Shown: positions 175-63,100, numbered from the stretch's first letter. The stretch is 64,000 nucleotides of DNA from Branchiostoma floridae (GCF_000003815.2 NC_049980.1:18053831-18117830); one strand, 5' to 3'. Notes: generated from the sequence alone by a model not told the origin. Program-made: numbers and translations.

Positions 175-3100
175 CTGTAGCAATGACAGGTCTCTTCACA
201 ACGGAATGCACAGCCATATACCCTCTTCTTACACTGGGCTGTAGAAAAAAAAAAGAAGGATACATTATTGAATGAACAGTAGGGCAAATACATACTGTAA
301 TATATAATTATGCTTCATTCAAAATCAGAATTACTTGGCTTGCTTGGCTTAGTGGCCAGTGACCCTGCCAACACTAGTAACAGCAGCTCCTGTCAATCAA
401 CCACTTGCATGTGACTGAAAAGGGTAACAGTCCAAAGGAGAGGACATTAATGTGTGGCGATAACAGTTTTCACTGTTACAGTATTGGGTAAATAGAGCTT
501 AGGGATTTTCCCCTTACATTGAATAAATTGTGTATATCATCTGTCTTCACATCACCTGTGAAATATTTCAGTTTTTCAATTAATAGATGAACTGCTTCAG
601 GATGGAAATTTCATAAGAACATCTGATAATCATTTTCCATTCAACTTTAAGAAAACAATTATTAGACCCAACGTACTTGTCATTTCTGTTGTGAACCATG
701 GCCTTGTTGTCTCAGGGACTGTAGACCACTCTGGCTTTGTTGTCTCAGGGTAGGTCTTCTCTGGCTCTGTAACCTCTGGCTTGGTGGTTTCAGGGTAGGT
801 CTTCTCTGGCTCTGTAACCTCTGGACGTGTGGTCTCAGGGTAGGTCTTCTCTGGCTCAGTAACCTCAGGCCTGGTAGTGGAGGATGGTGTTGTCACCTTC
901 CTTGGTGTTTTGTATGTAGTTGTCAGGACAGTAGTGTAGGTTTCTGGCTTGGTTGTCTCGGGGTAGGTCTTCTCTGGCTCAGTAACCTCTGGACGTGTGG
1001 TCTCAGGGTAGGTCTTCTCTGGCTCAGTAACCTCTGGCCTGGTGGTCTCAGGGTAGGTCTTCTCTGGCTCAGTAACCTCTGGACGTGTGGTCTCAGGGTA
1101 GGTCTTTTCTGGCTCAGTAACCTCTGGCCTGGTGGTCTCAGGGTAGGTCCTCTCTGGCTCAGTAACCTCAGGCTTGGTGGTCTCAGGGTAGGTCTTCTCT
1201 GGCTCAGTAACCTCTGGCTTAGTGGTCTCAGGGTAGGTCTTCTCTGGCTCAGTAACCTCTGGCCTGGTGGTCTCAGGGTAGGTCTTTTCTGGCTCAGTAA
1301 CCTCTGGCCTGGTGGTCTCAGGGTAGGTCTTTTCTGGCTCAGTAACCTCTGGCCTGGTGGTCTCAGGGTAGGTTCTCTCTGGCTCAGTAACCTCTGGACG
1401 TGTGGTTTCAGCCACAGTCGGAGTGGTTACCTTTCTGGTAGGCTTGGTTGTCTCACCTGTTGTGATAGCTGTTGACCTTGTTGTCGATATCGTTGTGGAA
1501 GATGTTGTGCACAAGTTTGAGCAGGTGAGCTTGTTTTCGTAGCAAGTACACATCTTACACTGAGTGACCTTTACTGTTGTACCAGCCTGGAAACAAACAA
1601 GATTTGATTACAGTGATAGTCTAATGCAATGTCAGTTGAGAGAGTTGCATAAATTTCAGGATATCATGGCTTTTATGAAAGTGATGAAAACAAGAAGAGA
1701 GACATACCGGCACAATGATTCCTTCGTCTGTGATACAGTCACATTGTGTAGGTTTCACACATGTGTAGAGATCCTTTCTGATGTAGCCAGGTGGGCATGT
1801 TGGACACTCACCGCACGTTGGCACACAAGCATTAGGATCATTTCTGTCACATTGAGTAATCTTGTGGCGATAACAGTGACAGGTCTCACGGCACTTGAAG
1901 GAGCAACCATAAATCCTCTTTCTGCATTCAGCTAAGAATACAAAAAAATTGTGTAATGAATAAATCTTGCTTCTATCATTGATAGTAAAAAATGATGCTC
2001 AGTGCTCAAATAGCATGCATGTGCATCAGTCCTAAGGTACCTGAAGATGAATGAATGTTTGTCACATCTTCGTAATATTGTTGAAGCAAGCCACAGAAGA
2101 GGTTTCTAATCAGTTTTCCTGGCACTGTTTGGATAACTTACTTGTGACAGTGGTATAGGTAGGTCTTGTTGTAAGCTCAGGGTAGGTCTTCTCTGGCTCT
2201 GTAACCTCAGGCCTGGTGGTCTCTGGGTAGGTCTTCTCTGGCTCAGTAACCTCAGGCCTGGTAGTCTCTGGGTAGGTCTTCTCTGGCTCAGTAACCTCTG
2301 GCTTGGTGGTCTCAGGGTAGGTCTTCTCTGGCTCAGTAACCTCAGGCCTGGTGGTCTCAGGGTAGGTCTTCTCTGGTTCAGTAACCTCAGGCCTGGTGGT
2401 CTCAGGGTAGGTCTTCTCTGGTTCAGTAACCTCTGGCCTTGTTGTCTGCACCTGAGTTGTGCCTGTTGTTGTCCCTGTATTGTGATAATTGTCAATTAGT
2501 GGAAATTAACTCACAGTAGTACTAGTTACCATAAGTACTGGCAATTTTTCATTAGTATACTCCTGTCACCTCAAGGACCACTAGGCCCAGAAGAGGATTT
2601 TGAGTGCACGTGGGTGAGTAATACCAATTCAAACAAATGTCAACTTCAAAGAGATACCTTCAATGAATGTTTATAAATAAATATGAATCCTGACCAATTC
2701 TCAAATAATGTCTTAATTCTTCCTTTGCATGCTCATCTTAAGATGATATTTTTCAAAACTACTTCATGCCCAAAAAAGAGGTCTGATTTAAATCATACGG
2801 TTATCAAGTTGGTTTTCTTACCTGGAGTTGTAACCTTACGAGGTGTGCGATATGTAGTTGTCTCTGGATTGGTTTGCTCAGGAGTTGTGCCCTCAGGCCT
2901 GGTGGTCTCAGGGTAGGTCTTCTCTGGCTCAGTAACCTCAGGCTTAGTGGTCTCTGGGTAGGTCTTCTCTGGCTCAGTAACCTCAGGCTTGGTGGTCTCA
3001 GGGTAGGTCTTTTCTGGCTCAGTAACCTCAGGCTTGGTGGTCTCAGGGTAGGTCTTCTCTGGCTCAGTAACCTCTGGCCTGGTGGTCTCAGGGTAGGTCT

Positions 3101-6100
3101 TCTCTGGCTCAGTAACCTCTGGCCTGGTGGTCTCAGGGTAGGTCTTCTCTGGTTCAGTAACCTCTGGCCTGGTGGTCTCAGGGTAGGTCCTCTCTGGCTC
3201 AGTAACCTCAGGCCTGGTGGTCTCAGGGTAGGTCCTCTCTGGTTCAGTAACCTCTGGCCTGGTGGTCTCTGGGTAGGTCCTCTCTGGCTCAGTGACCTCA
3301 GGCCTAGTTGTTGTACCCTCTGTTGTTACTTTGCGTGTTGGCTTTGTTGTCTCAACCTGTGTCTTTTCTGGTGTAGTTGTAGCTGTTGGCCTAGTGGTCC
3401 ACCCGGGAACAGATGTGGTTCCTGGTGTGGAGGCTGTCACCACTGTTGTTGTCTTCATTATGGTGGTTGTGCACAAATTCATGCATACCAGCCTATTGTT
3501 GTAGCATGTACACTTGTTGCACTGATCTATCAATTTTGTGGTGCCCGCCTGTGAAAAAGTAAAATACCACTTGTCAAATGAATATCAACATAACGACTAT
3601 TGATAAAACCATTCCTAATGACAGCATACTGAACATACATGTAAGAATATCAATCACTTTGACATGCTTTTTAACCTTAGAATGTATTCTGCAACCATCT
3701 ACACCATCAAAGCACTTACAGGTACAATAACTCCTCCAGCAGTGATGCAGTCACAATCAGTAGGTTTGACACATTTGTACAGGTCCTTCCTGATGTAGCC
3801 TGGTGGGCATCTTGGGCACTCGCCACATGTAGGCACGCATGCTTTAGGATCGTCCATGTCACACTGTGTAATCTTGTGACGGTAGCAGTGGCAGGTCTCC
3901 TCACATCTGAATGAGCAGCCATACACCTTCTTCTGACACTCAGCTGCACAAAATATATGACAATTGTTCAAACATGAGCCTCTTTAAAATCTATGATATT
4001 AAGATACTCATATTAACTTTCAAGACATTTTCTTTATTGTAAACTAGTTGTATTTGATCAAACTATCACTAACATCTATTATCATAATACCGGTACGTTT
4101 ACGACGATTTTTCTAGCCATACTGATTTGACAAATTGTCAACGCATCATTTTCTCCAGTTACATGTTGCTGTTATAGGTTACCCTTGCCACTTCTTCTGT
4201 GTAACTTTTCTGCCACTCTTGTCCTGCTAAAAGCGTAATATTGTAATTGTAACACGCCGCGGAATTACACGGCAAACGGGCGCGTGGTTGGGAGGGGGTA
4301 AAAAATACCGGTAGGAAGAAACACGACACAACTAACTGCCGCTATGTACATTTATACATCCTCTGATGTTCCTTCCTTTTCTGTCACTAAATGCATAAAA
4401 CATAAACCTGCATGAGCATACAAAATGTCATGAGAAAACGGACGTATACTGTCAAGAATTTTCATTCAACTTCTGTCCGTCACAACCGCTATGACGTAAC
4501 ACTTTACTGCTAGCGTAGATATAAAAATGGCGGGAAAATGGCTGCGTACGTTCAATTTTGCCCATTCAGTCGTAGATCCGGGCTATTATGCAACGGTTCT
4601 TCACACTTTTACATGAGTTGTAGGTCACCAACAGAAATTCAAGATTGTTGTTGAATCATTTTCGTCTTGTGCCGTGAGCATGTGTAATTATGATCTATAA
4701 ATTTGGCAATGAATGTGACAGTGTGTTCGTCCCACGACGAGCTGCCTACCCCGAAAAAGATACTGAAAACTTTTGGCCTTGTTGTCTTCGAATGCATTGT
4801 TATCAATGCTTTGTAAATGATGTATTGGACACCTAGATGTCTGAAGTGTGCACAGCTCAGAAATAACTATTGTTGCATGTGTAGATCTCTTTAAGTTCCA
4901 GTATTTTTAATCTACCGGTATAAGTCTTACTACCGGTATTATGCCAATGCATGTTACATAATATAAGCATCTTACATCACTTAATGTTGCCAGATTGCAG
5001 AAACTGTTCCTAATCATATTCTACTTCATCATGAACTCACTTGTGACAGATGTGTATGTTGGTGTTGTTGTCCATTCAGGACTGGTAGTCTCAGGGTAGG
5101 TTGTCTCTGGCTCAGTAACCTCTGGTCTGGTGGTCTCAGGGTAGGTCTTCTCTGGCTCAGTAACCTCAGGCTTAGTGGTCTCAGGATAGGTCTTCTCTGG
5201 CTCTGTAACCTCAGGCCTGGTTGTTGTAACTTGAGTTGTTCCTAAAATGTATTGTGTTTTAGCAGTTATGAACACTGTCATGCATTGTTTGGGTGGCATA
5301 CATGTAACAGTTATATATTATCAAGATTTCAGTCAGAATCTCCACACAATGTTTTGGGTAATCTTTGACCTAAGATGTCCCCTTGTAGCTGTCTCATTTT
5401 CTGTTGATTCTTCTCAGGAGCACTCATGTACATAACTTGTCAAAACAAGTTATGTACAAGTTCTGTGCATCTGTATTTTTTACATATCAGCTGATCCTAG
5501 AGGAAATCAAGTAAAAAACAGCACCTCAGTACCAAAAGATATCATTTAGCTTTTTTACCTGGTGTTGTAACCTTACGGGGTGTGCGATATGTGGTTGTCT
5601 CTGGATAGGTTTGCTCAGGAGTTGTGCCCTCTGGCCTGGTCGTCTCAGGGTAGGTCTTCTCTGGCTCAGTAACCTCAGGCTTGGTGGTCTCAGGGTAGGT
5701 CTTCTCTGGCTCAGTAACCTCTGGACGTGTGGTCTCAGGGTAGGTCTTCTCTGGCTCAGTAACCTCTGGACGTGTGGTCTCAGGATAGGTCTTCTCTGGC
5801 TCAGTAATCTCAGGCTTTGTGGTCTCAGGGTAGGTCTTCTCTGGCTCAGTGACCTCAGGCCTGGTGGTCTCAGGGTAGGTCTTCTCTGGCTCAGTAACCT
5901 CAGGCCTGGTGGTCTCAGGGTAGGTCCTCTCTGGCTCAGTAACCTCAGGCCTGGTGGTCTCAGGGTAGGTCTTCTCTGGTACAGTTGATGTAACAGTTGT
6001 CATTGTTGTTACTGAAGTGTTTTAGAATGAAAATTGTGAATTTAATTTCTGGATGAAAAAGAATGTATTTAGCATGGAATATAGCAAAGCATTCAGGTTG

Positions 6101-9100
6101 TCCTTATCATTTTTCTGGCAATATAATATTGTAGTGACATTATTAGTTCAAGAAATAAATGAAATTAAAAAAAATTAATGTCATGCATGTACAGTTGTTA
6201 TGTCTTTTATGAGTCTTTTATGTTGAAAACATGACAACAACCAGACACTTTGTATACAGCTGGGAAATGATGTTGCATCTGTAAACAGCTATAAGGTAAA
6301 CATAATTGCAACCTTTATCCTATATACACCACATAGGACTGCAAAAGCATTGGGATGACCTGGAGGGTGATTTTATATTCATCTCAAAATGGGATGGTTT
6401 GTTATAACGTTAGTACCTTCAGTAGTGACCTTCCGCTCTGGTTTTGTGGTAACCTCCGGATACGTTCTTGCTGGTGTTGTTGTGGATCTAACAGTTGTTA
6501 CTGTAGTCTCTGGGAGAGTACTGGTAACAGTGCTTACAGTTGTTGTTGTGGTACATTTGTCTGTGCACACCAGCCTGTTGTTGTAGCATCTACACTCCTT
6601 ACACTCGTTGATCACTTTGACTTCTCCAGCCTTAAGAATATTAATATAAAATTCAATATAAAATCATCATCATATCGTTTACTTGTAATGTGTAATGGCA
6701 AAATTTAGTCGCCAAAAATATCATTCACAGGATAGTCTCCAGGAATATTCACAGGGAGGGGTCAGGCACAGATAGCCAACATAGCATGACGATAGCCACA
6801 CGCGTAAGCACTCACTGGGTTGCATACAATGTACTTGGTGGTCTGTCATCTTCGCCCAGGAAATGTCCAAATATAAACCCCTCCCAGGCACTAGCTATTT
6901 CCTGCATTTTGAGGAACAAGTTTCATGATTTTTTCTCTTCTCTACAGCCTGCTACACCTATCCTTGAAAAACTAAATTCAATGCTAATTATCTTTTTTGT
7001 GAAGGTTTACCCAGGGAGAAACAAATTACCCAATGCTTGTTGAAAGATATGGAGGACCTTAATTCATATTCACCCAAATATTTGAGGAGTGAGACATTCA
7101 GAAATTCAGTTTTTAGCCTCCATCAGAAAGGCAACTTTCAGAAGTTCTAACAGATTAATATCTCTATTATGTACAGATTGATACCAATACAGACATAAGG
7201 AAAATGATAACATACAGGAACGACAACACCATCTTCAGTAATGCAATCACAGTCTGTTGGCTTCACGCATGTGTAGAGATCCTTCCTGATGTAGCCTGGT
7301 GGGCAAGATGGACACCTGCCACACGTGGGCACGCATGCTTTAGGATCATCTCTGTCACATTGGGTGATCTTGTGACGGTAACAGTGACAGGTCTCGTGGC
7401 ACTTGAAGGAGCAGCCATACACCTTCTTTACACACTCAGCTGAACAGGGAAAGGAATTTAGGTGATATGTTTAGTCTGCTTTTGTCTGAAACACAAAAAC
7501 TACTGAAAATTCTATTGTGTATATCAAGTTAGTCAGACTTACTGGTCAATCTAAAAACATAACAGTAACAGCAATGCTTCAATCTACCCCAGGACATTGC
7601 AGCAGGTGATAATGTTAACATAAGGACATCCCCATAATTTTGTAAGGCAAGGAAAAACTAACTTGTGACTGAAGTGTATGTTGGTGTTGTACTCCATTGA
7701 GGCTTGGTGGTCTCAGGGTAGGTCTTCTCTGGCCTGGTTGTTTCTGGGTAGGTCCTCTCTGGTTCAGTGACCTCTGGCCTAGTGGTCATCACCTGGGTTG
7801 TGCCTGTTGTTGTTCCTGTATTGAAACAATTTGTAAAGTATTAATTGGTAAAATGCCAAACTATCATCTGATATTGATCCTAACGATTGGGCTGAAAAAG
7901 GTGGTTGCTGACATTTTGATTTGTGTATGCCTTTGTGTTGGCATAAAGTTAAGCATTGTAATATGATTAGGACCAACACAGGTTAGCTTCCATTTTACTG
8001 TAAGTCTTAATTGGTATATGGATTATTGTCATTATTGTTGACAGTACTTTTCCAAAAACTATTACATTCCACTAACCACCCCTGATCAAGAACTCTCTGC
8101 ATTTGTAAACTACCTTTAAAGTACCCAATCATGTCAATCAGTAATTAAAAGAAATTTTCTTGCCTGGTGTTGTAACCTTACGAGGTGTGCGATATGTGGT
8201 TGTCTCTGGATAGGTTTGCTCAGGAGTTGTGCCCTCTGGCCTGGTGGTCTCAGGGTAGGTCTTCTCTGGCTCAGTAACCTCTGGCCTGGTGGTCTCAGGA
8301 TAGGTCCTCTCTGGCTCAGTAACCTCTGGCCTAGTGGTCTCAGGGTAGGTCCTCTCTGGCTCAGTAACCTCAGGCCTGGTGGTCTCAGGGTAGGTCTTCT
8401 CTGGCTCAGTAACCTCTGGCCTGGTGGTCTCAGGGTAGGTCTTCTCTGGCTCGGTAACCTCTGGCCTGGTGGTCTCAGGGTAGGTCTTCTCTGGCTCAGT
8501 AACCTCAGGCCTGGTGGTCTCAGGGTAGGTCCTCTCTGGCTCAGTGACCTCAGGCCTAGTTGTTGTACCCTCTGTTGTCACTTTGCGTGTAGCCTTTGTT
8601 GTCTCAACCTGTGTCTATTCTGGCGCAGTTGTAGCTGTTGCCCTAGTGGTCCACTCGGGAACAGATGTGGTTCCTGGTGTGGAGGCTGTCACCACTGTTG
8701 TTGTCTTCATTATGGTGGTTGTGCACAAATTCATGCATACCAGCCTATTGTTGTAGCATGTACACTTGTTGCACTGATCTATCAATTTTGTGGTGCCCGC
8801 CTGTGAAAAAGTAAAATAACATATTGATAAAACCATTCCTAATGACAGCATACTGAACATACATGTAAGAATATCAATCACTTTGACATGCTTTTTAACC
8901 TTAGAATGTATTCTGCAACCATCTACACCATCAAAGCACTTACAGGTACAATAACTCCTCCAGCTGTGATGCAGTCACAATCAGAAGGTTTGACACNNNN
9001 NNNNNNNNNNNNNNNNNNNNNNNNNNNNNNNNNNNNNNNNNNNNNNNNNNNNNNNNNNNNNNNNNNNNNNNNNNNNNNNNNNNNNNNNNNNNNNNNNNNN

Positions 9101-12100
9101 NNNNNNNNNNNNNNNNNNNNNNNNNNNNNNNNNNNNNNNNNNNNNNNNNNNNNNNNNNNNNNNNNNNNNNNNNNNNNNNNNNNNNNNNNNNNNNNNNNNN
9201 NNNNNNNNNNNNNNNNNNNNNNNNNNNNNNNNNNNNNNNNTCAAGGCATTTTCTTTATTGTAAACTAGTTGTGTTTGATCAAACTATCACTACATAATAT
9301 AAGCATCTACATCACTTAATGTTGCCAGATTGCAGAAACTGTTCCTAATCATATTCTAGCTCATCATGAACTCACTTGTAACAGATGTGTATGTTGGTGT
9401 TGTTGTCCATTCAGGACTGGTAGTCTCAGGGTAGGTTGTCTCTGGCTCAGTAACCTCAGGCCTGGTGGTCTCAGGGTATGTCTTCTCTGGCTCAGTAACC
9501 TCAGGCTTAGTGGTCTCAGGATAGGTCTTCTCTGGCTCTGTAACCTCAGGCCTGGTTGTTGTAACTTGAGTTGTTCCTAAAATGTATTGTGTTTTAGCAG
9601 TTATGAACACTGTCAGGCATTGTTTGGGTCCCATACATGTAACAGTTATATATTATTATCAAGCTTTCAGTCAGAATCTCCACACAATGTTTTGGGTAAT
9701 CTTTGACCTAATATGTCCCCTTGTAGCTGTCTCATTTTCTGTTGATTCTTCTCAGGAGTACTCATGTACATAACTTGTCAAAACAAGTTATGTACATGTT
9801 CTGTGCATCTGTATTTTTTACATATCAGCTGATCCTAGAGGAAATCAAGTAAAAAACAGCACCTCAGTACCAAAAGATATCATTTAGCTTTTTTACCTGG
9901 TGTTGTAACCTTACGGGGTGTGCGATATGTGGTTGTCTCTGGATAGGTTTGCTCAGGAGTTGTGCCCTCTGGCCTGGTGGTCTCAGGGTAGGTCTTCTCT
10001 GGCTCAGTAACCTCAGGCTTGGTGGTCTCAGGGTAGGTCTTCTCTGGCTCAGTAACCTCAGGCTTGGTGGTCTCAGGGTAGGTCTTCTCTGGCTCAGTAA
10101 CCTCAGGCCTGGTGGTCTCAGGGTAGGTCTTCTCTGGCTCAGTGACCTCAGGCTTTGTGGTCTCAGGGTAGGTCTTCTCTGGCTCAGTGACCTCAGGCTT
10201 TGTGGTCTCAGGGTAGGTCTTCTCTGGCTCAGTAACCTCAGGCCTGGTGGTCTCAGGGTAGGTCTTCTCTGGCTCAGTAACCTCTGGACGTGTGGTCTCA
10301 GGATAGGTCTTCTCTGGCTCAGTAACCTCAGGCCTAGTGGTCTCAGGGTAGGTCTTCTCTGGCTCAGTAACCTCAGGCCTGGTGGTCTCAGGGTAGGTCC
10401 TCTCTGGCTCAGTAACCTCAGGCCTGGTGGTCTCAGGGTAGGTCTTCTCTGGCTCAGTAACCTCTGGCCTGGTGGTCTCAGGGTAGGTCTTCTCTGGCTC
10501 AGTAACCTCAGGCCTGGTGGTCTCAGGGTAGGTCTTCTCTGGTACAGTTGATGTAACAGTTGTCATTGTTGTTACTGAAGTGTTTTAGAATGAAAATTGT
10601 GGATTTAATTTCTGGATGAAAAAGAATGTATTTAGCATGGAATATTATAGCAAAGCATTCAGGTTGTCCTTATCATTTTTCTGCCAATATAATATTGTAC
10701 ACTACATTATTAGTTCAAGAATAAATGACATTAAAAAGAAATTTATGTCATGCGTGTACAGTTGTTATGTCTTTTATGAGTCTTCTATGTTGAAAACATG
10801 ACAACAACCAGACACTTTGTATACAGCAGGGAAATGATGTTGCATCTGTAAACAGCTATAAGGTAAACATAATTGCAACCTTTATCCTATATGCACCACA
10901 TAGGACTGCAAAAGCATTGGGATGACCTGGAGGGTGACTTTATATTCATCTCAAAATGGGATGGTTTGTTATAACGTTAGTACCTTCAGTAGTGACCTTC
11001 CGCTCTGGTTTTGTAGTAACCTCCGGATACGTTCTTGCTGGTGTTGTTGTGGACCTAACAGTTGTTACTGTAGTCTCTGGGAGAGTACTGGTAACAGTGC
11101 TTACAGTTGTTGTGGTGGTACATTTGTCTGTGCACACCAGCCTGTTGTTGTAGCATCTACACTCCTTACACTCGTTGATCACCTTGACCTCTCCAGCCTA
11201 TAAGATTGATAGCCACACGGTAAGCACTCACTGAGTTGCATCCAATGTACTTGGTGATATGTCACCCTCCCCCAGAAAATGTCCAAATATCAACCCCTCC
11301 CAGACACTATTTCCTGCATTTTAAAGGACAAGTTTTATGATTTCTTTTCTCTGCAGCCTGCTACAGCTATCTTTGAAAGCTTAATGCTAATATATAATTA
11401 TCTTTTTTGTGAAGGTTTCTCCAAGAAGAAACAAGTTACCCTATGCTGGTGGAAAGATAAGGACCACCCTAATTCATATTTGCCCCAATATTTCAGGACT
11501 GAGAAGTTTAGGAATTCAGTTCTCAGCCTCCATCAGAAAGGCAACTTTCAGAAGTTTTACAGATTGATATTTCTATTATGTAAACAGATTGAGACCAATA
11601 CAGATAACGAAAATGATAACATACAGGAACAACGACACCATCTTCAGTAATGCAATCACAGTCTGTTGGCTTCACGCATGTGTATAGATCCTTCCTGATG
11701 TAGCCTGGTGGGCAAGATGGACACCTTCCACACGTGGGCACGCATGCATTAGGATCATCTCTGTCACACTGGGTTATCTTGTGACGGTAGCAGTGACAGG
11801 TCTCGTGGCACTTGAAGGAGCAGCCATACACCTTCTTTACACACTCAGCTGAACAGGAAAAGAAATTTAGGTGATATTTATAGTCCACTTCTGTCATAAG
11901 ATGAAAACACAAAAACTAACTGAAAATTCTATTGTGTACATTACGTTAATCAGACTTACTGATCAATTTAAAAACATAGCAAATTATAACAGCAATGCTT
12001 CAATATACCCCAGGATATTGCAGCAGGTAACATTGCTAACATACAGACATCCCCATTATATTGTTAGACAAGGAAAAACTAACTTGTGACTGAAGTGTAT

Positions 12101-51100: not shown

Positions 51101-54100
51101 ATATCATTGGAGTATGCTTACTTGTAACAGCTGTTGTCACCCATGGAAGAGTTGTGGACTCCGGGATTGTTGTTTCCATTTCAGGCCTAGTTGTGTATGT
51201 CTCAGGCTTGGTGGTGTAGGTCTCAGGCTTGGTGGTGTAGGTCTCAGGCTTGGTGGTGTAGGTCTCAGGCTTTGTAGTGTAGGCCTCTGGAGTTGTTGTA
51301 GAAGAGGGAGTTGTCACCTTCCTTGGAGTTTTGTATGTTGTTGTCACCACTGTTGTGTAAGATTCAGGCTTTGTGGTGTATGTCTCAGGCCTGGTGGTGT
51401 AGGTCTCAGGCCTGGTGGTGTAGGTCTCAGGCCTGGTGGTGTAGGTCTCAGGCCTGGTGGTGTAGGTCCCCGGCTTGGTAGTGTAGGTCTCAGGCTTGGT
51501 GGTGTAGGTCTCAGGCTTGGTGGTGTAGGTCTCCGGCTTTGTTGTGTATGTCTCAGGCCTAGTGGTGTATGTCTCAGGCCTGGTGGTGTATGTCTCAGGC
51601 CTGGTGGTGTAGGTCTCAGGCCCAGTAGTGTAGGTCTCTGATGTTGTTGTAGAAGAGGGAGTTGTGACCTTCCTTGGAGTTTTATATGTTGTTGTCCCCA
51701 CTGTAGTATATGTTTCAGGCTTTGTGGTGAATGACTCAGGCTTTGTGGTGTAGGTCCCAGGCTTAGTGGTGTAGCTCTCTGGCCTGGTGGTGTAGGTCTC
51801 TGGTACAGTGGTACTAACAACCTTCGTTGTTACCTCTGTTGTTGTTGTGCAGAGATTCTCACAAGTCATTTTGTTATTCTCGCACTTGCAGATGGTGCAC
51901 TTATCAACATATTTTTCTGTATTGGCCTGGAATAAAAAAAGTAATATTTACTAATTCTATAATCTTATATGACATAAAAGCTTGTCTATGTCAACAAATA
52001 TCTCACTAATGATTCAATGTCAATTTCATACAAAAAGAAAAAAAAACTATAATATCTAATATCAGTTCACATCTTGTGTTACAAAAATTGAATCATATGT
52101 TTAAAAAACTGTCAAAATGCTACTCACGGGAACTATCTGTCCATCAGGAGTGATGCAGCCACACTCTGTAGGCTTCACACAGTGGTCCTGATCCTTGCGG
52201 ACATATCCTGGTGGGCAAGCTGGGCATGGCCCACATGTTGGCACACAAGAACTCCTGTCTCCGTACATACACTGTGTAATCTTGTACCTGTAGCAGTGGC
52301 AGGTCTCCTCACATCGGAAGGCACAGCCATACACCCTCTTTTTACAGGTGGCTGAAAATGTCATCAGATACATTCTTGTTAGAACAGCACATCATGCATT
52401 TAAGTGTCTTTATGGACCATATGGACAGTATACAGCACCAGGGACAGGGCCATGTGTACAATATTCAGCACCAGGGACAGGGCCATATGGACAGTATTTA
52501 GCACAAGGACAGGCCCATATGGACAGTATACAGCACTTGAGACAGGGTCATATGAACAATATTCAGCACCAAGGACAGGGCCATGTGGACAGTGCTCAAC
52601 ACCAGGGACAGGGCCATATGGACAGTTTTTAGCACAAGAGACAGGGCCATGTGGACAGTATTCAGCACCAGGGACAGGGCCATGTGTACAATATTCAGCA
52701 CCAGGGACAGGGCCATATGGACAGTATTTAGCACAAGGACAGGGCCATATGGACAGTATACAGCACTTGAGACAGGGTCATATGAACAATATTCAGCACC
52801 AAGGACAGGGCCATGTGGACAGTGCTCAACACCAGGGACAAGGCCATATGGACAGTTTTTAGCACAAGAGACAGGGCCATGTGGACAATATTCAGCACCA
52901 GGGACAGGGCCATATGGACAGTTTTTAGCACAAGAGACAGGGCCATGTGGACAGTATTCAGCACCAGGGACAGGGCCATGTGGACAGTTTTTAGCACAAG
53001 GACAGGGCCATGTGGACAGTATACAGCACTTGAGACAGGGTCATATGGACAATATTCAGCACCAAGGACAGGGCCATTTGGACAGTATTTTGCACAAGGG
53101 ACAGGGCCATGTGGATGGCATTCAGCACCAGAGACAGGGCTAAACTAGGTTTGGATGGATGGAGCAGACTAAACTAGGCTTGATATGTTTTTATGACAGT
53201 CTCTGCTAACATTACACAAAAAGCTTCAAATTTCATGGTCTTGGTTAAATTGAAGCTAATAACCTGAATAAGAAACATTGATCTATATTGAACAATAATA
53301 ATTCTGGTAAATGACTGTGATGTCATCATCACCCTTTCTTTGCCGATTCTATAAAATAGAATATAAAAAAAACTTACTCGTAATTTCAGTGGTGTACCAG
53401 GGAGTTGTGTTCTCAGGCACAGTTGTAGAGGTCTCAGGTCTGGTGGTGTATGTTTCAGGCTTGGTAGTGTAGGTCTCAGGCTTGGTGGTGTATGTCTCTG
53501 GTTTGGTAGTGTATGTCTCAGGCTTGGTAGTGTATGTCTCAGGCCTGGTGGTGTATGTCTCAGGCTTGGTAGTGTATGTCTCAGGCTTAGTGGTGTATGT
53601 CTCTGGTTTGGTAGTGTATGTCTCAGGCTTGGTGGTGTATGTCTCAGGCCTGGTGGTGTATGTCTCAGGCCTGGTGGTGTATGTCTCGGGCCTAGTGGTG
53701 ACCTGCTCAGGGCGTGTTGTAGAGGAAGGAGTAGTAACCTTCCTTGGTGTTTTGTATGTGGTTGTAACAACTGTGGTGTAGGTTTCAGGCTTTGTGGTGT
53801 ATGTCTCTGGCTTTGTGGTGTATGTCTCTGGCTCTGTGGTGTAGGTCTCAGGCCTGGTGGTGTAGGTCTCAGGCTTGGTGGTGTATGTCTCAGGCTTGGT
53901 GGTGTATGTCTCAGGCTTGGTGGTGTAGGTCTCAGGCCTGGTGGTGTATGTCTCAGGCTTGGTGGTGTATGTCTCAGGCTTGGTGGTGTATGTCTCAGGC
54001 TTGGTGGTGTATGTCTCAGGCTTGGTGGTGTAGGTCTCAGGCTTGGTAGTGTAGGTCTCAGGCTTGGTGGTTGTGTACACTTCAGTTGTTTGCTCTGGTT

Positions 54101-57100
54101 CAGTGGAACAGAGATTTGAACATGACAGCTTGTTGTTGTAGCATGTACAGACCTTGCAGTTGCCGACCTTAACAGATGTCCCTGCCTGAAACACAATGCA
54201 AAACATTTGTCCTTGATATCCTTCTCTACACTTTCAAATTGCATAGTACATGTACATAACAATGTCGGAAAGATGGAATTTAAAATTTAAAAAAATTAAT
54301 CTCTCAGGATCATATCAAATAGAACTTACTGGAATGATGACACCATCTTCAGTGATACAGTCACACTTTGTAGGTTTCACACAGTGGTAGAGGTCCTTCC
54401 TGATGTAGCCTTTAGGACATTGTGGACATTCCCCACATGTGGGCACACAGGCTTTAGGGTCGTCGCGCTGGCACTGGGTGATCTTGTACCTGTAGCAGTG
54501 GCACGTCTCCTCACACTTGAAGGAGCAGCCATACACCTTCTTCTGACATTCAGCTGTAGAATATTTTAAATGATTGATTTGCTATGTTCAAGTCATTTCA
54601 CCTAAAGACATGACTGCAGAACAGCCAACTTACAGCCAAAAACAAGATAATTTTTGAATTATCATGGCGATATTTAGGATGCTACAGTTATCATTTTTCT
54701 TCAAACTTTGGACTTTGCTATCAGGGACCCCTTGAATATTGAAAGTTTAGGTTTTCCTGTCCGTATTTCCCAGTATCACTATTTTTTTGGCAAAGCAACA
54801 TCAATTCTTATTGGTAACTCGCTGAAAACCCGTTTTTTTGGCAACCAACATATTGCCGAAAATGTCCTCATCATTTTCAAGGGTGTATTAACCTTGATTT
54901 TTATAATAATTGTCAGGAAATCCCGGTAAAATCTGCAAGTTTTGATTTGTATTTCGACGCCGACAAAAATCAAACTATGGCGCCCTCAATGTCAAACAGG
55001 TCATTGGGATAGTCCACTGTATCACAGTTGCAAAAAAATACACTTTTGAGAAGCAGGACTACTTGTAATCACAAGATATTACAATTTATGGACAATTTAT
55101 GGAAAATCAGCACTGAGCCGGACTTAAATGGTGGCAAAGTTCACTGTGATGTCATATACAGACAATCAATAACAAAAAATCTTGAGTGAGAAGAATGATC
55201 TTTGGATGGCAGAATGTTCAACAACAGGAACAAATGCATTATGTTCGTTAACTGAATAATTATCATTGTTGTTCAATGCAATCAGAAGATGAACATATGC
55301 CTGGATGATGAAATAAACTTAGTACTACTAGACAAATATTCTAACCAATTCTGTCATACCAGAGCATTAAACTGCTGCACAGTAACTTTACAAAAGCCAG
55401 AGGTTTTTGAAAATAATCCCTTGTGGTGATTTCCACTTCCAGTTTAACTAATTATGAGGATGAAATGATAAAAGTCACTATCATCATTAGATTTCAGAAT
55501 TTGAAACTTTGATTGGACACATCCTTATTTCTAGACCTACTCTAACAGTAAGTCTTGCAGTGTACTTCTCTTTATGAGGCTACTTTGCATACCAGATCAG
55601 TTATTGGCCTGCCTGATAACGGCCTGTCATATATGGAACTGTCTACACACAATAACAACTTCTGTAAGAAGATCTAAATGCCCATGAGGAATGCCACGCC
55701 ACAATTTTTGTTTGCAAAGCTGCCAGTATGTCAAAGGGCAGCTAGACTTATTGATACTTAATTATACAAATCAAAACAGATGTTCATTTCATATATCATA
55801 ACAAGGTAAAACTAGCAGTAGCTCAACCACACTTACTTGTTACAGTTGTGTAGGTAGTTGGCAAAGTTGTTTGTTCCTCTGGTGCCGTTGTAGAAATCTC
55901 AGGCTTAGTTGTATATATTTCTGGTTTAGTTGTATATGTCTCAGGCTTTGTGGTGTATGTCTCAGGCCTGGTGGTGTATGTCTCAGGCTTTGTGGTGTAT
56001 GTCTCAGGCTTTGTGGTGTATGTCTCAGGCTTGGTGGTGTAGGTCTCAGGCTTGGTGGTGTAGGTTTCAGGCTTGGTGGTGTATGTCTCAGGCCTGGTGG
56101 TGTATGTCTCTGGCTTTGTAGTGTAGGTCTCTGAAGTTGTTGTAGAAGAAGGAGTTGTCACCTTCCTTGGAGTTTTGTATGTTGTTGTTACCACTGTAGT
56201 GTAAGTTTCAGGCTTTGTGGTGTATGTCTCAGGCTTTGTGGTGTATGTCTCAGGCTTTGTGGTGTAGGTCTCAGGCTTTGTGGTGTAGGTCTCAGGCTTA
56301 GTGGTGTAGGTCTCAGGCCTGGTAGTGTATGTCTCAGGCCTGGTGGTGTATGTCTCAGGCCTGGTGGTGTATATCTCTGGCCTGGTGGTGTAGGTCTCTG
56401 GCCTGGTGGTGTATGTCTCTGGCCTGGTGGTGTAGGTCTCTGGAGTTGTTGTAGAAGAGGGTGTCGTAACCTTCCTTGGTGTTTTGTATGTTGTTGTCTC
56501 TGGCTTGGTGGTATAGATCTCAGGCTTGGTTGTGGTAATGGATCCTGTTGTCTCAACAAGTGGAGTTGTTGTGATGGTTGAGGTTGTGCACAGGTGTGAG
56601 CAGGTTAGCTTGTTGTTGTAGCAAGTGCACATTGTGCATTCATCAATCTTCTTTGTAGTCCCAGGCTAGAAAATACAGGAAATTGAAAATGTCATATTCC
56701 TTCTCAAAATAAAGATGTATATGACAACGTACATGTTTAGAATTCTACAGTACAATATTTTAGACCATTTAAGTGGTTGTATCAAAGTGGAATTAATGAT
56801 ACTCTGATACAAACATGTACATATTCGGTATCATATTGGTATTCAGTTTCATCTCTCATCCTTAGGAAACCTATTTTCCTAATTAACATAACATTACACC
56901 AATGTACTACTGACCTGGTAGAGGACAGCACAGCATAATAGACATGTAAGGCCAAAATAAATGGAAAAATATCAATAAAATCTAAAATGAAGGTTTCAAA
57001 CATACCGGTACAATGACGCCTTCTTCCGTTCGGCACTCGCATTCTGCTGGCTTGATACACCTGTCCCTGTCCATCCTAACATACCCAGCAGGGCAGGGTG

Positions 57101-60100
57101 GACACTCCCCACATGTCGGTACACAGGCCTTAGGATCTCCATATGCACACTGGGTGATCTTGGTCCGGTAACAGTGGCACACTTCATCACACTTGAAGGA
57201 ACACCCGTAGACCTTCTTCGTACATTCAGCTAAGAAGAATTATACACATGAATGTACTTTAGTATCTACAAGTATGATACACCTTACAGTACAGTCATGA
57301 TCCAGTGTCTGGTCTCTGTATCAAAACTACATTTAATTTCATGTGTCTGCATGCCATGGGGAAAACATTTACACACAGGTCACTTACTTGTTGTCAAACT
57401 CTCTGGGGTGGTAGTGTACACTTCTGGCTTAGTGGTGTACACTTCTGGCTTGGTAGTGTACACTCCTGGCTTGGTGGTGTACACCTCTGGCTTGGTGGTG
57501 TACACCTCTGGCTTGGTGGTGTACACTTCTGGCTTGGTGGTGTACACCTCTGGCTTGGTGGTGTACACCTCTGGCTTGGTGGTGTAAATCTCTGGCTTGG
57601 TGGTGTAAACCTCAGGTGTTGTTTCCATTCCAGGTGTTGTAACTTTCCTGGGTGTCCTTGTGGTGGTATCTTCTTCTGGCCTGGTCGTAAAGACAGGTGT
57701 GCCTGGCGTTGTTCCTGAAGGAGGTACATGTGTGCATCATTCTATGTACTTGATTTCCCTAAGTTGCACGCATCAACAGTGTTGATGCACAATTTAGAAT
57801 AGATTAACATACATGTACGTGCTTCACTTGAATGTTTAAACAGTTGTAAATAGAACAGCTACGAGAGGAGAAAAATTGATATTAAAGCTTTTTTACCATT
57901 ATCAACTTAAAGACTGTCACATAAGTTCTAGATTAAGAGATAACTGCAAGTAAATAAGATGATTGATGATCTTACGTTCAGAACAAATAGGAACATTGGC
58001 ACAGCACAGCAGACGCACTTCATAGTTGTAACAGTAAGGGCTGATTCCTCTCATCATCATCTGGAACTTGCTGGGACCAGTGGCATGAGTACAGACACAG
58101 CCAACCTCACAGTTAGCCACGACATTCTGGCCTGTCCTGGAGTAGTCAATGTGTGTTCCAACAGTGCGGCATTGGATCCTGTTGACCTTCTGGTTTGCCC
58201 CACCAACGTTAAAGCCATGGCGACGAAGGTTTGTGAAGGATTCATCGTCACCCCTTGTTGCGGGAGTTGGGTAGCAGGCATCCATCCATGCTGTCCAGGA
58301 GCAGGCTTCCTCCTCAGTGTAGCATCGAGTAGTAGGCACTAACAAAAAAACAAACAGGCCTTTTGTGAACAAATAACTAACTGGACCATTTATCTATAAA
58401 TATATATAGTATAATGATCTTAGCTGGGATACAAAATATGTCAAATTGAAAGGAGTAGAATACAAGATTGACTGTTACAAGAATCTAACAGTTCCTTTCC
58501 TGTACTACAAAAATTGAGGCTCACTGGAATTGTCGACTTACCTGTCGTAGTAACTGGTGTAGTTTTCTCCGTAGTAAGCTTCCTTGGAGTTTTGTACCCA
58601 GTAGTTGTAATTGATGGAGTTGTCGTTGGCACAGATGACGTTGTACATAGGTTGACACAGGTCATTTTGTTGTCATAGCAGTTGCAGACTGTACACTGAT
58701 CGATCTTCTGAGTGGTACCAGACTAGAATGTACAAACAAGGTATGATTATTTGCTTGAGTCACTTTTCCTAGAGTTATCAAGAGAGACTAATGCATTGAA
58801 AGTCATAAATTATCTACAACAACATCAAGATCTGTACATTTGAGTTGTCAGGATAAATACTGTAGATGAAAGGTATTTGAGATAGTCACTACAAACTGCC
58901 TCTAAAATGTCTGTGCATAGAGAAGAGGACCTGGTGAAAAAAATGTTCTGAAATAGTTGTTAAAGACCTTCACTATCTTGTTTTGGAATCATTATACTGC
59001 TGTTATCAACTATAAACTAGCCTCTTTCAAATATCTATTTCTCCTTTCTCCAGGACAAAGAGTTCTGTGGTCAACAGCAAAGATTGCAGTCATGTTACCT
59101 ACCGGAACAATAACACCATTATGGGCGATGCAGTCACACTCAGTTGGCTTGATGCAGTGGTATTGGTCTTTGCGGACGTATCCCTTGGGACATGGAGGGC
59201 ACTCTCCACATGTTGGGACACATGCACTGGCATCACCACTTGAACACTGGGTGATTTTGTAGCGGTAGCAGTGGCAGGTCTCCTCACACTTGAAGGCACA
59301 GCCATAAACCCTCTTCTTACATTGAGCTGTGTCAACATTTCATGAATACGTTAAAAACCTGAAGTATCTAATACAAAAACAATTGCCATAGGAGGTAAAA
59401 ATGATACTACACTGTTCTTTCATCAAATGGATGGTATTCAGGGACAGGGCAATGCAAATATTATTTAGCAACAAGGACAGGGCCATGTGGACAGTATTCA
59501 GTACCATTAACAGGGCCATGTGGACAGTATTCAGCACCAGGAACTCACTAATATTGACATGTGGACAGCATACAGCACTAGAAACAGGGCCATGTGGACG
59601 GTATTTATCACATGGGGCAGAGTCATGTGGATAATTCAGCACCATAGACAGGACCATGTGGATGATATTCAGCACCAGGAACAGAGCCATATAGATGGCA
59701 TTCAGTGCCAGGGACATGTGCACAGTTTTCAGCACCATGGACAGGCTCATGTAGACAGTATTCAACACTAGAGATAGGGCCATGTGGATAGTATACAGCA
59801 CTAGAAACAGGGCCACGTGGATAATATTCAGCACCATGGACAGGGCCACGTGGATAGTATTCAGCACCATGGACAGGGCCATGTGGATGGTATTCAAAAC
59901 CAAGTAAAAGGCCATGTGAACAGTATTCAGCACCAGGGACAGGGCATGTAGATAGCAGGGTCATGTGGATAGCATTCAGCACCATTTAGGGAAGGGAAGT
60001 CTGGCTGGTACAGATAATGTTCTATTTATTGACGAAAAACCTGTACCCGAGATATATAATCTCTATGGAACTCACTAATATTGACATGATAGTAATACCT

Positions 60101-63100
60101 CCTTTGCTTTTCAGTTCAAGACTGTTGTTCAAAATATGCTGTTGATTGGTGATCACGGCCCAAAAAAGAGACCAAAAACTACATTAACAATAATGATTAT
60201 GCTTACTTGTGACAATTGGGCTTGTTGTTGGATATTCAGGTGCTGTGGTGGTAGTCTCCTCAGGCTTAGTGGTGGTAGTCTCCTCGGGCTTGGTGGTGTA
60301 TGTCTCTGGAGTTGTGGATGAGGGAGTTGTCACCTTCCTTGGTGTTTTGTATGTTGTTGTCTCAGGCCTGGTAGTCTCAGGGTAAGTCTCTGGCCTGGTG
60401 GTCTCAGGATAGGTCTTCTCTGGCCTTGTGGTCTCAGGATAGGTCTTCTCTGGCCTGGTAGTCTCTGGATAGGTCTTCTCTGGCCTGGTGGTCTCAGGAT
60501 AGGTCTTCTCTGGCCTTGTAGTCTCAGGGTAGGTCCTTTCTGGCCTTGTTGTCTCAGGGTAGGTCCTCTCTGGCCTGGTGGTCTCAGGGTAGGTCCTCTC
60601 TGGCCTGGTGGTCTCAGGGTAGGTCCTCTCTGGCCTGGTGGTCTCAGGATAGGTCTTCTCTGGCCTGGTGGTCTCAGGATAGGTCTTCTCTGGCCTGGTA
60701 GTCTCAGGGTAGGTCCTCTCTGGCCTTGTGGTCTCAGGGTAGGTCCTCTCAGGCCTGGTAGTCTCAGGGTAGGTCCTCTCTGGCCTTGTTGTCTCAGGAT
60801 ACGTCCTTTCTGGCCTGGTGGTCTCAGGGTAGGTCTGCTCTGGCCTGGTGGTGTATGTCTCTGAAGTTGTTGTTGAAGAGGGAGTTGTCACCTTCCTTGG
60901 TGTTTTATACGTTGTTGTATAAGTCTCTGTCCCAGTGGTCTCAGGGTAGGTCTTCTCTGGCCTGGTTGTGTATGTCTCTGATGTGGTTGTGTATGTCTCT
61001 GATGTGGTTGTGTATGTCTCTGATGTGGTTGTGTATGTCTCAGGTAGAGTTGTAGTTTCAGTTTCTGGAGTAGTTGTTCCGCAGACATTGTCACACTTTT
61101 CCTGGTTTTCTTCACACCTGCAGACATTACACTTGTCTTTCCACCATACACTGCCAGCCTATGATGAGCAGGAGGATAGTCAGTGCAACACCATTGTGCA
61201 GTTCAACTTTCATACATGCTTTTCGTACATCAACATTTATCCTTTGTTTCCAGAATGGATATGGTAAATCTCTACAACTTGCATTTCAAACATGGCCTAT
61301 ATTGCCTAAGAGTCTTAAATATGTCTGCTTGGTCTTATTGTTTTCATTGCAAACTTTGCAACAATGTTTTTTTTTTCCATTATCATCACATTTTTCAAGG
61401 TACTGCATTTCAGCAATATTACAACAAACCAAAGGAATATAATCCATTATCTATTACATACCGGCTTAATTGTGCCATCCTCAAGCATACAGGGGCACTC
61501 AGAGACCTTGCAGCAGGTGTTGGCATCCAACAGAACATAGTCAGGAGGGCACTTGGGGGGCTCCCCACACCTTGGGCAGCATGTCTCATCATAGCCATAA
61601 GTACACTCTGTGATCTTCTTTCTGTAGGAGTTGCAGGTCTCCTTGCATGTGAAGGAGCATGGTTGTAACACCTGGCCAGGTGGACATTCTGCAAGGGAAC
61701 ATGAGTTAAGGTAACATGTTAATCATGAAAAGTGTTTCAGCCTCATATAGTATCAGCCTTAAACACATTTACTGTAACCAAATCATGGATTGAAGTAATA
61801 TCTAACATGAAGTGTTTCTTGATTTCTTTTTAACTAGGTGTAAAGACCAGCTGGATGTTGCCCACCCATGCAAGGTAACTTGTGTGGTATAATCAAATAC
61901 TGGATATATTATGTCCTGCACATTGTGATGTTTGCCATGTTAACAGTAGTTGATAGAAGATGATTACCAGTAGTCACGGGCACAGTTGTCTCTGGTGCCG
62001 TGGTGGTTATGACTGTTGTTGTGCTCATCCTCTGCTCGGGTGTGGTTGTCTGACAGGTAGATACACACTTCATCTGATTGTTCCAGCAGACACATGATGT
62101 ACACTTGTCCTCTTTCCATGAGGTGCCAGGCTGGAATAAGAACATGATATTCAGTATCGTTGAAAAAACTTGAATGCAACTGATATTCATTATTTGATAA
62201 TTGATGTATGCAGGCATGCTGATGAAAGGAGCGGAAAAAGTTATACCAATAAACTGTTATCAGCTAGTTGCTGTGTATCATAGCTTCATTCAGGCAGCTA
62301 ACATTAGTATAATCCTATTGTGAACAGCTGCTGCTAGTCATCATTGTATTCATTGAGAACATAATAAATGGCCCAAGCTATATTGAATGAGCATGACCTA
62401 CCGGTACAAGTGTACCATTCTCCAGCCTACAGGGACACTCTTCAATCTTGACACATGTATCGATGTCCCTGAGCAGCTGTCCAGTGGGGCAGCCCTTGTA
62501 GACACCACAGGTCGCCACGCAAGTCTTATCCCAGCCATACTCGCACTCCGTCACCACAGCACGGAAGCAATGGCACGTCTGCTCACACGTGAAGGAGCAG
62601 GGATACAGCTGGTCTTCTGGACAGGTTGCTACAAGGATAGATCAAGACAAAAATTATGATGATTAACCTTTAAGCACTTAGATTGAAAGCATCAAGAATC
62701 TTCAAAACAGTTAACAGCATTTTGTATTGTATTTATGACAAAAATGGACAGATAAAGGTAACACAAATCAATAATGACACATTCAACCGCTGTAATCATA
62801 ATATACCAGATTAAATACAAACAATGAAGGGAGCTAAGGGAGACACGGCAAGAAAATTGAGTACTTACTTGTAGCAAGTGTTGTTGGCTCAGGAGTTGTA
62901 GTGGTTGTTGTGGTCTCTGCCATTGTTGGCATCCAAGGTGTTGTTGTTGTCCCTATCAGAAACATAATGATACACATTGGTAAACCTGTACACGTACAGA
63001 GAGTCATAAAATATTTGACAGAATCTACATAAATTGGATAAGATGTACACACACAATGTTCTAGGTACATATTTGAACAAGACTTCATGAAAAGCCAAAC

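Follow-up and report, generated by a model that had tools for sequence, protein, structure and literature searches.

How can a gene be enlarged by the serial addition of small cysteine-rich units without loss of its reading frame, and how can such units stay nearly alike while the introns between them diverge? Both questions are raised by a stretch of 64,000 nucleotides (nt) from the lancelet Branchiostoma floridae (G000:C2:18053831-18117830), referred to throughout as the window. Its minus strand carries, over and over, a pair of exons, the first encoding a domain that resembles the TIL domain of mucins and the second an E domain with a threonine-rich tail (PTS, for proline, threonine and serine). 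The window most likely represents the middle of a single, very large gene for a secreted gel-forming mucin. The explanation that best accounts for the whole, which I consider probable though well short of certain, is a single mucin gene whose arrays arose by duplication of blocks and were shaped by purifying selection and exon-limited conversion, and whose modules may form closed nodes along the protein.

Anatomy of the locus

The sequence read at the locus, window and flanks together, amounts to 134 kb, and the genome scanned to 513,431,437 bases in 431 contigs. Positions on the minus strand are given as rc, where rc is 64001 minus the plus-strand coordinate. From the first C8 domain to the stop after the cystine knot (rc 90.76 kb) the gene spans about 99 kb. 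In the order of transcription, a Sushi domain, D1, D2, the TIL of D' and D3 lead to array 1 (rc 1.0-31.3 kb); a diverged TIL and E and two VWD-C8-TIL domains (rc 32.5-41.9 kb) lead to array 2 (rc 42.3-73 kb); and there follow a further CysD, an LDLa domain, two more VWD-C8-TIL sets, another C8 with a TIL, VWC-like modules and the cystine knot. The D domains of the flanks, the cystine knot and the Thr/Pro-rich stalks thus bear out an earlier reading of the window from its sequence alone (the sequence-only reading), which had called the gene a mucin.

Several of the flank domains were recognized by reading open reading frames (ORFs), without a Pfam scan. In the upstream flank the Pfam scores are 23.2 bits for Sushi, 53.3 and 55.9 for C8, 43.9 for TIL and 72.9 for VWD. 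In the N-terminal D1-D2-D'-D3, two C8 domains, a TIL and VWD3 exceed their Pfam cut-offs and the motifs GMCGN and GLCGN are present; the third C8 and the TILs of D2, D' and D3 were identified in unscanned ORFs, and VWD1 was not located in the upstream flank. Downstream, CysD scores 31.1 bits, LDLa 44.5 and Cys_knot 24.8, a narrow pass over its cut-off of 24.0; the motifs GDPHY and CGLCG occur there, the D-type and VWC-like ORFs were read by eye, and the single VWC-like piece scanned fell below the Pfam cut-off. The Sushi domain upstream of D1 (L010:2754-2900) and the LDLa domain near the C end (L014:7695-7910) would, if parts of this gene, extend the domain set usual for mucins. Within the window, membership of CysD (Mucin2_WxxW) is clear, at 50.6 bits against a PF13330 cut-off of 22.4. 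The genome holds at least 38 matches to the array-type TIL exon, 33 of them at this locus, four on the unplaced contig C192, and one, marginal, on C10.

The features of the window, in order of transcription and in plus-strand coordinates, are listed here (E-PTS, an E exon with its tail; D4a and D4b, the two internal D domains).

62869-62952, minus, PTS-only exon, phase 1-1
62399-62626, minus, diverged TIL-like domain, 12 Cys
61968-62130, minus, E-PTS exon
61459-61689, minus, diverged TIL-like domain, 13 Cys at other positions
60207-61158, minus, E-PTS exon, upper limit of the range in the sequence-only reading
59103-59326, minus, TIL-like exon, 224 nt
58542-58722, minus, E-PTS exon
57388-57714, minus, PTS-only exon
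57006-57229, minus, TIL-like exon, 224 nt, block B, 1
55837-56665, minus, E-PTS exon
54330-54553, minus, TIL-like exon, 224 nt, block B, 2
53378-54185, minus, E-PTS exon
52128-52351, minus, TIL-like exon, 224 nt, block B, 3
51122-51926, minus, E-PTS exon
50714-50937, minus, TIL-like exon, 224 nt, block B, 4
49760-50342, minus, E-PTS exon
48885-49108, minus, TIL-like exon, 224 nt
48017-48437, minus, E-PTS exon
47447-47670, minus, TIL-like exon, 224 nt, block C copy 1
46158-47028, minus, E-PTS exon
45746-45969, minus, TIL-like exon, 224 nt, block C copy 1
45428-45617, minus, E exon, short tail, precedes CysD
44762-45127, minus, CysD (Mucin2_WxxW) exon, copy 1
44038-44643, minus, PTS-only exon
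43393-43616, minus, TIL-like exon, 224 nt, block C copy 1
42551-43031, minus, E-PTS exon
42018-42241, minus, TIL-like exon, 224 nt
40744-41659, minus, E-PTS exon
40376-40599, minus, TIL-like exon, 224 nt, block C copy 2
39072-39801, minus, E-PTS exon
38630-38853, minus, TIL-like exon, 224 nt, block C copy 2
38307-38517, minus, E exon, short tail
37326-37691, minus, CysD exon, copy 2 (PF13330, 50.6 bits)
36628-37200, minus, PTS-only exon
36246-36309, minus, split TIL-like exon, 5' part, 64 nt
35875-36034, minus, split TIL-like exon, 3' part, 160 nt
34356-35523, minus, E-PTS exon
33922-34145, minus, TIL-like exon, 224 nt, block C copy 2
32683-33715, minus, E-PTS exon, last of array 1
32238-32465, minus, diverged TIL-like domain before D4a, 12 Cys
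31778-31964, minus, E exon, short Thr tail, before D4a
30492-31484, minus, internal D domain D4a, VWD pieces (20.5 and 22.5 bits, just below the Pfam cut-off of 22.9)
29663-30377, minus, C8 of D4a (PF08742, 57 bits for the last piece)
26872-27033, no strand, assembly gap, 162 N
24441-24701, minus, TIL taken as completing D4a (28.4 bits, above cut-off)
23370-24091, minus, internal D domain D4b, VWD (48.1 bits for the first piece)
22531-23262, minus, C8 of D4b (20.0 bits for the scanned piece, cut-off 23.7)
22077-22421, minus, TIL of D4b (43.4 bits)
21775-21874, no strand, assembly gap, 100 N, between D4b and array 2
20835-21651, minus, E-PTS exon without TIL exon, directly behind the gap
20330-20553, minus, TIL-like exon, 224 nt, block C copy 3
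20000-20210, minus, E exon, short tail
19216-19581, minus, CysD exon, copy 3
18269-18874, minus, PTS-only exon
17911-17974, minus, split TIL-like exon, 5' part, 64 nt
17572-17731, minus, split TIL-like exon, 3' part, 160 nt
16182-17029, minus, E-PTS exon, 848 nt, frameshift within repeats
15501-15724, minus, TIL-like exon, 224 nt, block C copy 3
14201-14675, minus, E-PTS exon
13467-13690, minus, TIL-like exon, 224 nt
12614-13337, minus, E-PTS exon (end by an assumed GC donor, on the analogy of the exon ending at plus 2822)
12084-12236, minus, PTS-only exon
11625-11848, minus, TIL-like exon, 224 nt
10984-11197, minus, E-PTS exon (end by donor rc 53017)
9897-10574, minus, PTS-only exon
9376-9576, minus, PTS-only exon
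8997-9240, no strand, assembly gap, 244 N
8164-8800, minus, E-PTS exon without TIL exon, behind the gap, one in-frame stop (end by an assumed GC donor)
7663-7815, minus, PTS-only exon
7216-7439, minus, TIL-like exon, 224 nt, near-copy of plus 11625
6417-6630, minus, E-PTS exon (end by donor rc 57584)
5559-6011, minus, PTS-only exon
5041-5241, minus, PTS-only exon
3720-3943, minus, TIL-like exon, 224 nt
2822-3548, minus, E-PTS exon
2142-2474, minus, PTS-only exon
1708-1931, minus, TIL-like exon, 224 nt
677-1586, minus, E-PTS exon
175-238, minus, split TIL-like exon, 5' part, 64 nt; the 160-nt part lies beyond plus 1

A symmetric module of two asymmetric exons

The window holds 20 exons of exactly 224 nt, all of phase 1 to 0, preceded by AG, followed by GT and open in one frame, and four more lie within 8 kb outside it. 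Each opens with two bases of a codon and closes with a complete one, and the 24 translations, with 13 cysteines apiece, form a 74-column alignment free of gaps. The length of 224 was itself a search criterion, and the independent support comes from exon ends that fall at homologous residues with splice sites; since this is so in all 24, chance is rejected as the cause of the equal lengths. The twenty exons of this length and phase claimed by the sequence-only reading therefore stand, on splice borders as well as alignment. So do the split copies, divided into 64 and 160 nt (together 224) at one common site in three places (rc 27692/27967, 46027/46270 and 63763/64048, the last crossing the window edge). 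The identical split site, together with the similar E exon that comes next in all three modules, points to one event of intron gain or retention that spread with the module. Counting against a shared event, the module tree joins s27692 and s46027 only, and s63763 stands by itself at an open fork.

There are 27 E exons with Thr-rich tails in the window. They run from phase 0 to phase 1, and 26 have a length of 1 modulo 3, a result that is partly by construction, as phase-1 donors were preferred when exon ends were called. The exception (rc 46972-47819, 848 nt) contains a frameshift within its repeats, as had been read before. Two E exons (rc 52804 and 57371) with listed ends lacking GT were reset to donors 53017 and 57584, each becoming 214 nt, again 1 modulo 3, and the ends of two others (rc 50664 and 55201) rest on an assumed GC donor. 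The two E exons without a TIL exon (rc 42350 and 55201) lie directly behind N gaps. Twelve PTS-only exons of phase 1-1 accompany the modules, one preceding the first module and the others spread over nine tails; a further Thr-rich ORF (rc 20000-20170) is excluded from this number. The three CysD exons lie within the arrays and run from phase 1 to 1. Modules and accessory exons alike are thus in phase 1 at both outer ends, so that whole modules or blocks can be gained or lost without breaking the frame, and the exon phases make the pair a symmetric 1-1 cassette, as was claimed.

All 27 array modules readable in both exons keep 13+5 cysteines, and the claim of rigid cysteine modules with variable tails is supported. 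Because the number of cysteines is even, an array module would be able to close internally. Three diverged TIL-like domains (plus 62399-62626, 61459-61689 and 32238-32465) are 2-3 residues longer than the array form and share 11 cysteines with it, and may in this way connect it with TIL; the array form adds C19 and C42, which may pair as an extra disulfide. When three array and three diverged rows were compared by hhalign with 14 true TILs, the probability was 96.0% (E 4.8e-9, over 59 columns); the 24 array rows alone gave 87.4%, over the second half only. As for the number of serial units, said to exceed 25, there are indeed 27 E exons, but these include three that are diverged and two without a TIL, they fall into two arrays split by the D pair, and some may be redundant. 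The window holds about 25 modules, give or take a few.

Selection and the unit of duplication

The ratio of nonsynonymous to synonymous substitution (dN/dS) between TIL exons has a median of 0.17 and is below 1 in all 32 pairs, of 351, with usable dS; for E exon pairs it is 0.44 (24 usable). Over all TIL pairs the mean proportion of differing sites is 0.17 for nonsynonymous (pN) and 0.67 for synonymous (pS) positions, and from the latter most modules must be old. Distances between TIL exons correlate with those between their own E exons at 0.56, a value reached in none of 5000 permutations, and shifting the pairing by one module lowers the correlation to 0.30, as compared to 0.61 on the same subset. 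Each TIL exon moves together with its own E exon.

A tree of 27 modules has 24 inner branches, of which 12 are well supported and six are open. It matches four successive modules from the beginning of array 1 (rc 6772, 9448, 11650 and 13064) one to one, and in the same sequence, with four that come last in array 2 (65130, 67047, 69335 and 71283), with support of 100/100, 100/99, 100/100 and 97/99. A second block, around the CysD exon, occurs in three copies, the first without the split module. The ordered pairs and the copies of the CysD block show that duplication moved blocks of several modules. The cassette proposed earlier as the unit of duplication is therefore right insofar as TIL and E travel together, but single cassettes were not the only things that moved.

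Exons alike, introns apart

The statistics on sister modules exclude the split pair s27692/s46027 and any pair involving u14893; the mean of 11 excludes 52153/56562 as well. The mean identity over these 11 sister pairs is 0.95 for TIL, 0.90 for E, 0.56 for the intron between them and 0.454 for the 150 nt upstream. For 30 random non-sister pairs the corresponding values are 0.72, 0.67 (a noisy control, with a standard deviation of 0.13), 0.46 and 0.448. The intron figures are inflated by alignment, since the introns are short and anchored by exons. By blastn, intron similarity is absent in nine of 12 sister pairs, limited to a 24-nt match in one and clear in two, and upstream similarity is absent in 10 of the 12. 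The pairs 25148/43448 and 52153/56562, with clear similarity in both intron and upstream DNA, serve as positive controls.

In the closest pairs the TIL exon differs at a single fourfold site, out of 26 or 23, and yet the introns are unlike by blastn. Divergence may also be uneven inside one cassette: in the pair 11650/69335 the TIL exons differ at 3 of 222 positions, the E exons at 18 of 84. The three CysD exons are 98% identical, translate into one and the same sequence of 118 residues and differ at two of 51 fourfold sites in each comparison, with an identity of 0.33-0.42 in the flanking 60 nt; by blastn their flanking introns are unlike, apart from a single 31-nt match among the six comparisons. 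Exon-limited gene conversion after an old block duplication most likely explains the contrast between exons and introns, since it is hard to see how selection by itself would preserve fourfold sites in some pairs and not in others.

The stalks

The 6109 stalk residues in the window, including those of two defective exons, consist of 36.3% T, 15.5% E, 14.7% P, 7.7% Y, 6.4% K, 5.9% R and 2.3% S, with no Cys, and by composition form a mucin region. Without the two defective exons there remain 5676 residues, of which 447 (7.9%) are Tyr, an unusual share for a mucin domain. The common repeats are heptads, ETYTT(K/R)P, and decads, KTYPETTRPE, with Tyr at a fixed place in 210 of 234 heptads and 141 of 144 decads, encoded variably by TAC and TAT. 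Glu stands two residues before 234 of the 447, and the repeats that carry them are presumably flexible and exposed. Plus-strand ORFs rich in Cys and Trp were rejected as antisense genes, being mirror images of the Thr repeats. A dibasic motif, (Y)xTPRKVTTP or a variant with RK before VTT, occurs 44 times in the stalks of the window (e.g., plus 55837-56665), and may possibly be a cleavage or binding site.

Published work reports that the amphioxus endostyle makes protein-bound thyroxine (T4) without thyroglobulin (PMC13078365, 2026), that the mucus nets of lancelets are secreted from the endostyle (PMC6109156), and that a T4 acceptor is a Tyr directly after an acidic residue (PMC11730217). It is conceivable, but would be surprising, that this Tyr-rich mucin is the protein iodinated by the lancelet endostyle in place of thyroglobulin: only five of the 447 stalk Tyr directly follow an acidic residue.

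Elsewhere in the genome, 13 TIL matches at intervals of 1942 or 1943 bases, of which ten score 53.3 bits, form a far more regular tandem array (G000:C6:15478439-15501906). A 10-kb piece over part of that array showed no Thr-rich stalk, and five 10-kb pieces at TIL clusters away from the mucin locus (two partly N; a narrow look) yielded one short Thr-rich ORF and no comparable Tyr-rich stalk.

Weighing the evidence

A number of observations weigh against the reading of a single mucin gene with closed, converted modules, beginning with the identity of the module. The one array exon scanned, of 24, scores 15.4 bits with Pfam TIL (cut-off 24.5) and the one E-PTS exon scanned, of 27, scores 15.7 bits with VWC (cut-off 27.6), so that the profile check proposed by the sequence-only reading succeeds for much of the D domains and flanks, with their VWD, C8 and TIL matches, and fails for the array exons scanned. 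No array exon is among the 148 matches of a genome scan with the TIL profile, in which 150 of 232 candidates were scored. Two structure models of the module are poor (predicted local distance difference test scores of 63.8 and 68.6) and have weak fold matches, the first finding nothing related and the second a weak match to VWF and MUC5AC. A profile search of the array TIL against PDB sequences returned four weak matches (E of 0.4 at best), and no TIL was among them. The domain is called TIL-like on account of the missed cut-off and the poor models. Nor are closed modules universal: by hand count, the diverged modules have 12+5 cysteines, an odd total, in two cases and 13+5 in the third.

Conversion is likewise open to objection. 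Sister introns exceed the highest of the 30 controls (0.518) in seven of 11 pairs, a gap-tolerant aligner places four of 12 clearly above shuffled introns, and some residue of common origin thus persists in them; 72 of 437 fourfold sites differ over the 12 sister pairs, so some pairs are not very close. Very old duplicates of whole blocks, under selection strong enough to hold synonymous sites as well, would account for the residual intron similarity and agree with the strong purifying selection on TIL and CysD. I judge this improbable as the sole cause, for synonymous sites are near saturation over all TIL pairs, which speaks against general synonymous selection, and the closest pairs combine nearly identical fourfold sites with dissimilar introns. 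The continuity of the gene is a separate matter. The module series is divided by two VWD-C8-TIL domains, D4a and D4b (plus 22077-31484), which the sequence-only reading had not mentioned, and such a pair could mark a gene boundary, the PTS region of mucins being usually ended by D-type domains. Of three N gaps (162, 100 and 244 N), the second falls exactly between D4b and array 2 and the first inside the D region, and 5 kb at rc 34.3-39.3 kb is without recognized exons. The locus might then comprise at least two mucin genes in tandem, or have been joined in assembly, the first gene ending at these D domains and array 2 belonging to another, but I give this little credence. In the 134 kb, one N-terminal D set was found upstream and one cystine knot downstream, which favors one gene and, presumably, one transcript; the TIL assigned to D4a sits beyond the exon-free 5 kb; and on C192 a copy of D4b (99.93% over 4063 bp) continues into array exons without N. 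From 45549 down to 33955 that contig has, after D4b, PTS exons, a TIL exon, E-PTS, TIL, E, CysD and a split TIL. C192 is a separate contig lacking the gap, yet it is not independent biological evidence if it represents the other haplotype.

Haplotypes bear also on the module count. The published B. floridae assembly merged two divergent haplotypes, according to PMC7269912, and polymorphism in the species is quoted as 4% in PMC8994340; a doubled segment of the locus may for this reason be redundant. The segment rc 50988-55802 has a second copy at 55438-61054, 89-96% identical and alike in its introns too (86-98%), beside the 244-N gap; the in-frame stop of the exon at plus 8164-8800 falls inside this segment, and C192 repeats part of the locus. 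That some modules were counted twice, two haplotypes of one diploid animal having been merged as a mosaic, is a serious prospect, if somewhat below an even chance. It would cover only C192 and pairs of the type 52153/56562, however, as 10 of the 11 other sister pairs have introns too diverged for alleles. The stop and the frameshift in the exon at rc 46972, both in array 2, are two defects among 27 E-PTS exons, and might be taken to mean that the locus, or array 2, is a decaying pseudogene. This is very hard to reconcile with a dN/dS of 0.17, all cysteines present in 27 of 27 readable modules and consensus splice sites in both arrays.

Two further observations concern this region. The DNA at plus 24968-26814, which has short mirrored ORFs, is repeated inside the long stretch between D4a and D4b and is also on C192. 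The part of the gene repeated at G000:C192:33948-48863 matches at 99.93% in D4b and only about 79% in the adjoining array, which could be a haplotype mosaic or a second copy; C192 does not readily fit a plain haplotype of the locus, there being no match of at least 300 bp outside its 34-49 kb (140 of 376 kb compared with 134 kb of C2).

Mechanism and relation to known mucins

Under the preferred reading of one mucin gene, the ends of the protein (D1-D2-D'-D3 and D4/VWC/cystine knot) would, by homology, polymerize the chain through disulfides, as in MUC2 and VWF. Between them would lie two arrays of TIL-like and E modules, each followed by a Thr-rich stalk that is presumably O-glycosylated, with CysD here and there. 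An old set of block duplications would have built the arrays, purifying selection kept the disulfide-rich modules, and exon-limited conversion between corresponding modules homogenized exons while introns diverged. The modules may be compact, protease-resistant nodes between glycosylated rods, like D' (TIL'-E') and CysD, rather than covalent cross-links.

The gel-forming mucins (MUC2, MUC5AC, MUC5B and MUC6) and VWF offer the same D1-D2-D'-D3 at the N end, a Thr/Pro-rich center, CysD in the PTS region, and a C end made up of D4-type domains, VWC-like modules and a cystine knot. Unlike theirs, the lancelet center consists of two dozen TIL-E modules alternating with stalks and an extra D pair in the middle, with LDLa near the C end and stalks that abound in Glu, Tyr, Lys and Arg but contain little Ser. 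Modules of class 1-1 in extracellular proteins duplicate in frame (Patthy's rule); unlike the usual phase-1 module, the symmetric unit here is a pair of asymmetric exons (1-0 and 0-1). The D' of VWF and MUC2 is likewise a TIL plus E without VWD and C8, and the TIL2-E2-TIL'-E' region is described (PMC9169620) as a bridge with a flexible joint, D' being part of the link from bead to bead. The lancelet module differs in being repeated, in its 13-Cys TIL-like exon, in its separate exons and in the mucin stalk that follows. Ci-GFM1 of Ciona, also a gel-forming mucin of an invertebrate chordate with D1, D2, D'D3 and cystine knot, has 2880 residues, a PTS region of 50 residues and chitin-binding domains, and no TIL-E-PTS array is described for it in the passages of PMC6109156 considered.

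A literature search by titles and abstract openings found no account of this gene; a 2007 PNAS survey of early gel-forming mucins was outside its reach and may mention it. Gel-forming mucins as a kind are already known, and what appears to be new is the series of TIL-E modules within one. A gel-forming mucin would here have been enlarged by a frame-safe two-exon module, not by one giant repeat exon, with an extra D pair inside. With paralogous exons near-identical and introns almost saturated, the locus would offer a natural single-gene case of exon-limited concerted evolution. For the biology of lancelets, the mucin is a candidate for their endostylar feeding net.

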